In this document: piece by piece, positions 1 through 2,598 of the stretch | Layout of the letters: each line of letters opens with the position of its first letter | Position numbering within the stretch: the first letter of the stretch is position 1 | Assembly (NCBI GenBank): GCA_011390885.1 | Contig: JAABRO010000033.1 | Span: forward strand, 17,389-81,388 | Source: Gemmatimonas sp. | Lineage (GTDB): Bacteria > Gemmatimonadota > Gemmatimonadetes > Gemmatimonadales > Gemmatimonadaceae | DNA: 64,000 bases | Direction of reading: 5' to 3' | The notes under the pieces: generated by a model | Database searches by the model: none | What the model was told of the DNA's origin: nothing | What the model saw: the letters and a program-made list of their open reading frames with translations, nothing else | Made by a program: the position numbers and the translations under genes

Positions 1-1234
1 TGGTCCAGCGCACGAAGTCGAGCGTGCTGAGCCCCGAGTAGCAGCGCGCGAGCCCGGCGGTGGGCAGCACGTGGTTGGCACCGGTCATGTAGTCGCCGTA
101 GGCCACGCTCGCACTCTCGCCCACGAAGATGGTGCCTGCGTGCCGCAGCGCGGCGAGCGTGGCGTCGCGCACGTCGTCACGCACGGCGAGCAGCAGGTGT
201 TCGGCGGCCCACTCGTTGGCGAAGCGCACGCCCGCCTCGAGCGACGCGCAGGTGAGCAGCGCGCTGCGCGCGGCCAGCGCCGTGCGCACGATGTCGGCGC
301 GCGGCGTGGTGGCCACGAGGGTCGCCAGTGACGCCTGCACCCGATCGGCGAACGCCTCGCTGCCCACGAGCACCGCAATCACCGCGGCGTCGGGGTCGTG
401 CTCGGCCTGCGCGAGCAGTTCGCGTGCGATCACGTCAGGGTTCGCGCTCTCGTCGGCGAGCACGAGCAGTTCGCTCGGGCCGGCCGGCGAGTCGATCGTG
501 ACGTTGGACACGAGCTGCAGCTTGGCCTCGGCCACGTACGCGTTGCCCGGGCCCACGATGCGGTCCACGCGTGGCACCGAGTCGGTGCCGAGCGCCATGG
601 CGGCGATGGCGCCGGCGCCGCCGATGGCGAAGACGCGGTCCACGTTGGCGAGCTCAGCGGCGGCGAGCACCACGTCGGTGGGGAGGCCGCTCGGCGACGG
701 CGGCGAGCAGACGATGACTTCGCCCACGCCGGCCACGCGCGCTGGCACGGCGCCCATGAGCAGTGAGCTCGGGTAGGCCGCGCGCCCGCCCGGCGCGTAC
801 ACTCCCACGCGCGCGAGCGGGTCGGGGCGACGGCCGATCACGATGCCGGGCTCCGGCGAGACTTCCACCGTGGTCGGGCGGAACGCGGCGTGCACCGTGC
901 CGATGTTCGCGGCCGCACGCTCGAGGGCGCGGCGCAGCGCCGGGTCGAGTGCATCGAGCGCGCGCGTCCACTCGCGGCGCGGCACGTCGAGCGTGTCGAT
1001 GGACACGCCATCGAAGCGGGCGGCGTACTCGCGGAGCGCGTCATCGCCACGCGTGCGCACCGCCTGGATGATGTCGCGCGTGCGCGCGCGCACCGTGTCC
1101 ACGTCGCTGCCGGCGGCGGCGTTCGTGCCCCCGTCGCGCTGCATGAGCGCGCGCGCGAGTGCCGGCTCGAGTGACTCGAGGGCGCCGCGCGCGCGCCAGG
1201 CGAGCGGCGCGGCGGTCGTCGGCGCGTCGCTCAT
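1..1234 (-). CDS. hisD: Histidinol dehydrogenase (3' end cut by window edge)
   Basis: Catalyses the last two oxidations of histidine synthesis, L-histidinol to L-histidine, in the cytoplasm with NAD+ and zinc. About 411 residues are present and the C-terminus lies beyond base 1. The reading shows the family core: [25 protein letters not shown] (quoted here in part), [12 protein letters not shown] and [11 protein letters not shown], followed by the catalytic AEHD near residue 285. ATG at 1234 is chosen because it overlaps the hisG stop (ATGA, 1231-1234), so the two are translationally coupled. It is the second gene of the operon under the upstream attenuator. Confidence 0.95.
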
Positions 1235-2109
1235 GGCACGAGCCGCTCGATGCGCGTGACGAGCATGCCCTCGGCACCCAGCGCGCGCAGCTGCGCGATG
1301 GTGCGGTACACGGCCTTGGCCGGCACCACGGCGTGCACGGCCACCATGGTGCCGCCGTTCATGATGTCCACCACCGTGGGGCCATTGAGGCCGGGCAGGA
1401 TCTGCTTGACCTGGTCGAGCATGGCGCGCGGCACGTTGGCCATGAGGTAGCGCTGGCCGCGCGCGCGGATCACCGAGGCGAGCGCCGTGGCCAGCTCCTC
1501 GAACTCGGCGGCACGCTCCGGGTCACCGTTGCGTGGTCCGTTGGGCGCCGTGATGAGGCGCGCGGTGCTCGTGAGCACCGTCTCGATCTCGCGCAGGCCG
1601 TTGGTCTTGAGCGTGGAACCGGTGGAGGTGAGGTCGACCACGATGTCGGCGATGCCGAGGTGCGGTGCGATCTCGGCGGCGCCGGACACGGGCACCACGT
1701 CCACCGGGCGCCCGCGCTCGGCGAAGAACTTCGCCGTGATGCGCGGGAAGACGGAGGCGACGCGCACGCGCGCGCCGTCCGCGCCGATCTGGTCCACGGT
1801 GGTGATGCCGGAGTCGTCCTTGGCGGCCACGACGAGGCGGCAGCGGCCGAAGCCGAGGTCGAGTCGGTCGGCGAGGTCGCGCCCCGACTCGTTCACGAGG
1901 TCCCAGCCGGTGACGCCGGCGTCGGCGGCGCCGTCGGCGACGAACTCGGGGATGTCCTGGGCGCGCACGAAGATGGCTTCGAACTCACCGCCCAGGGACG
2001 CGGTCAGGGCCCGTTCGCCGGCGGCGCGGACTTCGAGGCCCGCGTCATTGAAGAGGGCGCGGGTTTCTTCACTCAGCCGCCCCTTGTTGGGCAGCGCGAT
2101 TCGCAGCAT
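1231..2109 (-). CDS. hisG: ATP phosphoribosyltransferase, long form
   Basis: First committed enzyme of histidine synthesis, condensing ATP and PRPP. The 292-residue protein begins MLRIALPNKGRL, the standard HisG start, so ATG at 2109 is preferred over the longer open frame upstream, which crosses the leader terminator. Length and the C-terminal region (about residues 215-292, ending in RIERLVP) fit the long hexameric HisG with the ACT-like regulatory domain bound by histidine. This form does not need HisZ. The region VDLTSTGSTLKTNGL matches the PRPP-binding loop. It is the first structural gene after the attenuator and is coupled to hisD. Confidence 0.95.
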   Translation of the reverse strand: MLRIALPNKGRLSEETRALFNDAGLEVRAAGERALTASLGGEFEAIFVRAQDIPEFVADGAADAGVTGWDLVNESGRDLADRLDLGFGRCRLVVAAKDDSGITTVDQIGADGARVRVASVFPRITAKFFAERGRPVDVVPVSGAAEIAPHLGIADIVVDLTSTGSTLKTNGLREIETVLTSTARLITAPNGPRNGDPERAAEFEELATALASVIRARGQRYLMANVPRAMLDQVKQILPGLNGPTVVDIMNGGTMVAVHAVVPAKAVYRTIAQLRALGAEGMLVTRIERLVP

Positions 2110-2173: not shown

Positions 2174-2202
2174 AAAAAGGCCCGTCCTCGGGAGGACGGG
2201 CC
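2174..2202 (-). terminator. Intrinsic terminator of the his attenuator
   Basis: On the minus strand a 10-bp perfect stem (arms 2193-2202 and 2179-2188, loop 2189-2192) is followed by five T residues (2178-2174). It lies between the histidine-rich leader ORF and hisG, with no other gene upstream to end. An alternative pairing is available: mRNA bases 2275-2268 (GACGGGUC) can pair over 8 bp, with one G-U, with the terminator's own 5' arm (2202-2195). That segment begins just after the last His codon. The geometry is that of a ribosome-stalling attenuator. Confidence 0.88.
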
Positions 2203-2235
2203 AGCGGATGCTGATCGGCGTGGTGCGGAGCGCGC

Positions 2236-2322
2236 TCAGGCGCCCATGGACACGCGCAACAGTCCGCGACCCGTCGGGCCGTGACCATGATGCGCGTGAT
2301 GATGGGCGGTGGTGCGCTGCAT
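2236..2322 (-). CDS. hisL: his operon leader peptide (28 aa, His-rich)
   Basis: ATG at 2322 opens a 28-codon frame that ends in TGA at 2236-2238. Residues 7-14 read HHHAHHGH, six histidines in eight codons, in an otherwise ordinary short peptide. Ribosomes starved of His-tRNA would stall here, leaving the downstream segment free to form the antiterminator and letting transcription continue into hisG. No Shine-Dalgarno sequence precedes the ATG, and the predicted transcript starts at or within 1-2 nt of it, so the leader is probably translated as a leaderless mRNA. The frame is too short for usual gene calling. Confidence 0.9.
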   Translation of the reverse strand: MQRTTAHHHAHHGHGPTGRGLLRVSMGA

Positions 2323-2327
2323 GCCCA

Positions 2328-2357
2328 ATGCTAGTCGGGGTCGGGAGGTGGGGTCAA
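2328..2357 (-). promoter_or_regulatory. Promoter of the his operon
   Basis: Minus-strand -35 TTGACC (2357-2352), an 18-bp spacer and -10 TAGCAT (2333-2328). The expected start point falls on the A of the leader ATG at 2322 or one base later. Confidence 0.75.
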
Positions 2358-2418
2358 GCGGGGGGCGGGGTCATGTGGTTGGCGAGGCGCGGGCGGTCAG
2401 CTCATGACGTCGTCGTCC

Positions 2419-2509
2419 GGCCAGACCGCCTACCGTCTACCGACGCACCGATGCCGAGCACACGGAGTTCTCGGCATCGGTAGACGGTGATCGGTCGATC
2501 GGTCTGGCC
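2419..2509. repeat. 91-nt imperfect inverted repeat
   Basis: The outer arms GGCCAGACCG (2419-2428) and CGGTCTGGCC (2500-2509) are perfect complements. Inside them, a 19-base right-arm segment (CTCGGCATCG then GTAGACGGT, 2470-2488) matches the left arm except for an 8-base insertion, CGCACCGA. No T-run follows on either side, so it is not a standard terminator. The rest of 2358-2598 contains no gene that I can support. It separates the divergent his and cupredoxin promoters. Confidence 0.7.
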
Positions 2510-2598
2510 GAATGCGAGGCGGCACCTCACCGCACCGATCGGTCGTTGGGGCATGAGCCCCCCTCCCCCAATCCCGACCAATCTCCCCGGGAACCCCT

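Follow-up and report, generated by a model that had tools for sequence, protein, structure and literature searches.

The hisG gene of a Gemmatimonas species lies behind a small reading frame rich in histidine codons and a strong intrinsic terminator, an arrangement that raises the question of whether the his operon is controlled here by ribosome-mediated attenuation. A second question comes from the promoter, whose predicted -10 element sits so close to the leader ATG that a ribosome would have to begin translation at, or almost at, the 5' end of the mRNA. The locus is part of a 64,000-nucleotide stretch of DNA (the window) from a draft genome assembly (4.07-Mb, 95% complete), and its nearest named relatives by HisG comparison are Gemmatimonas MAGs.

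On the minus strand the elements follow one another in the order promoter, leader ATG, strong intrinsic terminator and hisG. An earlier note, made from the letters alone, had described each of them; when the minus strand was re-read, its coordinates proved correct for every element, and the six His in eight codons of its 28-codon leader frame were found to lie at codons 7-14. The features are as follows.

2352..2357, minus strand: -35 hexamer TTGACC, from a sigma70-like promoter scan and at the TTGAC position of the leader set
2328..2333, minus strand: -10 hexamer TAGCAT, after an 18-nt spacer from the -35 and 5 nt before the leader ATG
2236..2322, minus strand: leader peptide ORF MQRTTAHHHAHHGHGPTGRGLLRVSMGA, 28 codons, predicted to start at the mRNA 5' end, conserved before hisG (ATG 2322-2320, TGA 2238-2236)
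2281..2304, minus strand: putative regulatory His codons 7-14, HHHAHHGH, six His in eight
2266..2281, minus strand: local 6-bp hairpin CGGCCC-GAC-GGGUCG (regions 1:2), a competitor of the antiterminator, from folding, its pairs partly conserved
2268..2275, minus strand: region 2 core GACGGGTC, coding for P-T-G-R of the peptide, recognized by GGT codon bias and in relatives
2195..2275, minus strand: antiterminator, a single long hairpin of ~81 nt from region 2 to the terminator 5' arm, from folding and arm co-variation
2179..2202, minus strand: intrinsic terminator hairpin (regions 3:4), GGCCCGTCCT-CCCG-AGGACGGGCC
2174..2178, minus strand: terminator T-run TTTTT
1231..2109, minus strand: hisG (ATG at 2109), long-form ATP phosphoribosyltransferase of 292 aa, the predicted regulated gene

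Two sigma70-like sites were detected in 5 kb, the his promoter among them (shuffles: 0.1), and the terminator of the hisG leader is the only intrinsic terminator detected in the same 5 kb, where shuffled sequences yield about one by chance. We are confident in reading this locus as a his operon attenuator that acts on transcription through a ribosome, with a leader peptide that would be translated from a leaderless mRNA. The histidine attenuator had already been proposed in the earlier note, and it is now supported by the parts themselves, their conservation, pairings that exclude one another in silico, and co-variation between the arms of the antiterminator.

Conservation of the histidine leader

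To follow the leader across genomes we used the upstreams of related hisG genes, drawn both from within the phylum and from a public collection of genomes, and counted short ORFs in which four or more of ten codons encode His. Among 186 upstreams 300 nt or longer (some genomes being entered twice), 181 have such an ORF, whereas the reverse strand yields 4 and dinucleotide shuffles 1-6. Conservation of the leader is therefore far beyond chance, and we rejected the idea of a chance His run; the possibility that the leader is a coding part of hisG was likewise considered and rejected. Of the five upstreams that fell short of this count, one carries a three-His leader, MLAARTHHHRPRPTGPRGPHVRR, with promoter and terminator unchanged, another has an assembly gap with Ns within the leader, and a third was taken as a second record of the three-His-leader genome, so that a His leader is absent outright from only two of the 186. 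The earlier note had named one observation that would count against an attenuator, close relatives in which the His run or either stem is gone. This was looked for and did not occur: each of the three same-genus relatives found still has its His run and T-run as well as region 2 and the terminator. The wider comparison of hisG upstreams that the note had recommended gave the same picture, with the His leader retained in nearly every relative that has a long-form HisG.

Among relatives the leader reading frame and its His residues are kept despite variation of the third base, the His codons of the leader ORFs upstream of hisG being evenly split between CAC and CAT (491/467). That His is retained while the third base varies points, indirectly, to selection on translation. 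The number and spacing of the His residues vary freely from leader to leader. CAT makes up about half of the His codons in 150 leader ORFs and about 20% of those in the window's long ORFs, an enrichment that perhaps reflects slower decoding or the avoidance of structure.

The His leader accompanies long-form HisG in nearly all cases and is missing from most loci with a short HisG; judging from these loci, the form of the enzyme and the attenuator seem to go together. Two families (f9 and f11) have a long HisG, yet no His leader in the stretch searched. Most of the short-HisG loci L111-L127 (families f2 and f6) have no His leader in the sequence searched. In a HisG tree whose deep nodes have modest support, most Myxococcota HisG branch among those of Gemmatimonadota, and transfer of hisG together with its attenuator is possible. 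Two assemblies titled Candidatus Kuenenia and Comamonas (L036 and L082) carry hisG genes and leaders that group with those of Gemmatimonadota and Myxococcota, and these assemblies are probably mislabelled or contaminated.

Promoter spacing and a predicted leaderless start

All distances were taken from the nearest in-frame start codon preceding the His run. Of 150 distinct leaders, 123 have a TTGAC 34-40 nt upstream of this codon, and the motif hardly occurs at other positions in the vicinity. In 136 leaders the end of the -10 (TAnnnT) lies 4-11 nt before the start codon, although the selection of this set scored promoters near the start, and the unbiased TTGAC count is the stronger evidence. 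A motif resembling a Shine-Dalgarno (SD) sequence precedes the leader start codon in just 6 of the 136. In Streptomyces lividans, measured spacers between the -10 and the transcription start are 4-9 nt (PMC8079986), and by this yardstick the spacing in the leaders predicts a 5' UTR of zero to a few nucleotides.

The earlier note had read the -10 as placing the transcription start on the leader ATG, and the fixed distance from promoter to ATG gives this predicted leaderless leader strong comparative support. Judged from promoter spacing, transcription probably starts at, or a few nucleotides from, the leader start codon; in some relatives gaps of 8-11 nt leave room for a 5' UTR a few nucleotides long. 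The predicted leaderless layout is conserved in Gemmatimonadota and is found also in Myxococcota and Eisenbacteria, with weaker -10s; in the Myxococcota leaders, the weaker -10 matches are accompanied by GTG starts. Loading of the leader by a 70S particle, likewise put forward in the earlier note, would be in keeping with what is known of leaderless mRNAs.

The host's own genome holds 13 TTGAC-TAnnnT-ATG arrangements (L221-L233), compared with 1 for a reversed-pattern control. The reading frames that follow them include one that we take by eye to be HrcA-like and several that presumably encode antitoxin-like small proteins. Genes of the leaderless type thus seem ordinary in this organism, and the pattern suggests that many of its mRNAs are leaderless.

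Competing hairpins and the proposed mechanism

A terminator-like hairpin with a T-run is present in 149 of the 150 leaders, and most of the 150 share the motif GGCCCGTCC...GGACGGGCC at the terminator, of which the host genome has one copy only. Region 2, GACGGGTC, is encoded by P-T-G-R within a conserved HGPTGRG. Its Gly codon is GGT in 41 of 55 motifs, while GGT accounts for ~12% of the Gly codons in the window's long ORFs, a preference that points to a constraint on the RNA.

Pairing of region 2 (2275-2268) with the 5' arm of the terminator (2202-2195) over 8 bp had been suggested in the earlier note. This pairing exists, with one G-U, but it is merely the base of the longer antiterminator that spans 2275-2195. 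When the nascent RNA of the window is folded with the A site of the ribosome on His codons 7-12, it forms this one hairpin, at about -46 kcal/mol, with the leader stop codon in its upper part; with the A site at codon 14, the region 2 core is partly covered. Without a ribosome, the window leader folds on itself in silico and the terminator forms. Simulated stalling at the first His codons produces the antiterminator in all 149 leaders, in which a mean of 0.8 of the terminator 5' arm is paired to the leader with a stalled ribosome vs 0.45 without one. In these foldings, antiterminator and terminator are mutually exclusive, and a stall on the His codons yields the antiterminator. Measured against shuffles of single leaders, the antiterminator pairing reaches p<=0.05 in 66 of 149, a weak signal of the kind expected in GC-rich sequence.

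In free-register and whole-arm tests, the antiterminator arms of a leader pair better with each other than with swapped arms, whether the core is included or left out. With the cores omitted, own arms give -20.6 and swapped arms -16.9 kcal/mol over 97 sequences, and 0 of 5000 permutations were as good (p<1/5000); for 16 very different sequences p=0.0016, in a test that partly controls for the relatedness of the sequences. Most of the gap between own and swapped arms is gone after shuffling within arms, so composition does not explain the match. The 8-nt cores, swapped in fixed register, exhibit no co-variation (p=0.64) because they are almost invariant, and the co-variation signal comes from the extended arms, not from these cores. 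RNAalifold reports one co-varying pair, near the antiterminator base, and is limited to that base in the Gemmatimonas set because MAFFT aligns the upper part poorly.

From these parts and pairings we infer a course of events that runs from a leaderless start to histidine-responsive readthrough. Transcription would begin on the leader start codon or a few nucleotides away from it, and a ribosome would load on the 5'-terminal AUG and read the six His codons. In a cell short of charged tRNA-His, the ribosome would stall with one of codons 7-12 in the A site and hide the 5' half of the local hairpin, leaving region 2 (GACGGGUC) free to pair with the terminator 5' arm as it emerges; the long antiterminator hairpin would then allow RNA polymerase to continue into hisG. 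With ample His, the ribosome would continue past the antiterminator 5' arm, or region 2 would refold locally behind it, and the terminator would form. With a ribosome at the stop codon, region 2 is uncovered, and equilibrium folding of the window RNA still permits the antiterminator base. Since a ribosome at that position leaves region 2 free, the off state would have to be kinetic or to go through the local hairpin, which is to say that termination in fed cells would depend on the timing of the moving ribosome or on CGGCCC-GAC-GGGUCG.

Several other readings deserve to be weighed against a leaderless attenuator. A his attenuator might instead have a short 5' UTR, some 5-30 nt long, if transcription began elsewhere or at a shifted position, and initiate in a manner that is not leaderless; the -10 is after all a prediction, and its spacing differs by several nt between relatives. 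We consider such an attenuator improbable, given that the promoter hexamers keep a fixed distance to the start codon across the phylum, that SD-like motifs are so scarce, and that the 13 arrangements (1 in the control) make leaderless-type genes seem usual in the host.

Less probable still is a reading in which the His-rich peptide is itself the product, a small protein that binds metal or serves in signalling, with an ordinary terminator between the peptide and hisG. Metal binding is conceivable for HHHAHHGHG-like sequences, and the peTrpL peptide of S. meliloti acts in trans (PMC7298713), but the leader lies directly before hisG and is missing at most short-HisG loci, its His count and spacing are freely variable, and its non-His part is tied to RNA pairing by the GGT codon bias and the arm co-variation. 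Finally, the operon might be governed by a T-box riboswitch or a protein repressor, both of which regulate his genes in Gram-positive bacteria (PMC9413887). The T-box covariance model of Rfam gave no match in the host's own region or in 14 related loci, the element as a whole is without any Rfam match in the same sequences, and a leader ORF is foreign to the T-box architecture; we rejected both devices as scarcely credible here.

Relation to known attenuators and wider meaning

The leaderless attenuator proposed here resembles the his attenuator of E. coli and Salmonella (hisL; Rfam His_leader) in having a leader ORF with His codons, competing antiterminator and terminator structures, and a position directly before hisG. 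It differs in that it has no SD and a predicted leaderless start, that its antiterminator is a single long hairpin starting just past the His codons, and that it matches no Rfam family in sequence or structure; the His_leader covariance model found nothing in 801 bases (E<=1) or in 14 related loci (E<=0.5). Attenuators of his genes are on record for Proteobacteria and for some Firmicutes (PMC9413887, PMC2965389), the latter including candidates in the B. cereus group, Peptostreptococcaceae and Erysipelotrichales (PMC9413887) and the hisS/hisZ His leader of bacilli (PMC2965389). These Firmicutes elements, also discovered by comparative genomics, share the His-rich leader peptide, antiterminator and terminator, but belong to another phylum and have three to five consecutive His codons, and PMC9413887 makes no mention of leaderless initiation.

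The earlier note called the leaderless form unusual, a view that needs to be narrowed. Leaderless leader peptides are already known from S. meliloti trpL (PMC7298713), Streptomyces lividans leuL/trpL/ilvL (PMC8079986) and Corynebacterium glutamicum ilvBNC (PMC11857589), although we found none for histidine: these attenuators sense Trp, Leu or branched-chain amino acids, and they come from Alphaproteobacteria and Actinobacteria rather than Gemmatimonadota. Both halves of the design, his attenuation and the leaderless leader peptide, have precedents in other lineages. Like the earlier note, which knew of no description for such bacteria, we found no account of his attenuation in Gemmatimonadota or Myxococcota in the open-access literature, so an earlier one may exist, and no paper there on leaderless Gemmatimonas transcripts. 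A sister Trp attenuator upstream of trpE was looked for in the same genome and not found, and a LeuA family search gave no match.

These observations would bring Gemmatimonadota, Myxococcota and Eisenbacteria into the known range of leader-peptide attenuation of histidine synthesis, and would do so with a predicted leaderless sensor peptide that is kept from phylum to phylum. They suggest a missing Rfam family and provide an annotation for a conserved small ORF. Furthermore, the cultivable Myxococcus xanthus offers a way to ask how a ribosome without an SD couples closely enough to RNA polymerase for termination control. A more tentative proposal, which we regard as possible although unlikely, is that this is a separate, deeply conserved lineage of his attenuators that spread with long-form HisG over the three phyla, and that its leaderless sensor is kept for a functional reason, namely that the ribosome engages once the 5' end leaves RNA polymerase. 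Translation would then be locked to transcription from the first nucleotide, and his expression would depend both on histidine and on the condition of leaderless initiation (70S, IF2/IF3, stress).

The single Rfam match that we obtained, to a miRNA family at E=0.64, sits at a palindromic repeat outside the element and was rejected as chance. Window positions 2412-2516, immediately before the his promoter, form a long imperfect palindrome (DNA fold z -6.6). It has 12 matches in the genome, at 71-100% and in both orientations, and looks like a REP-like dispersed repeat.
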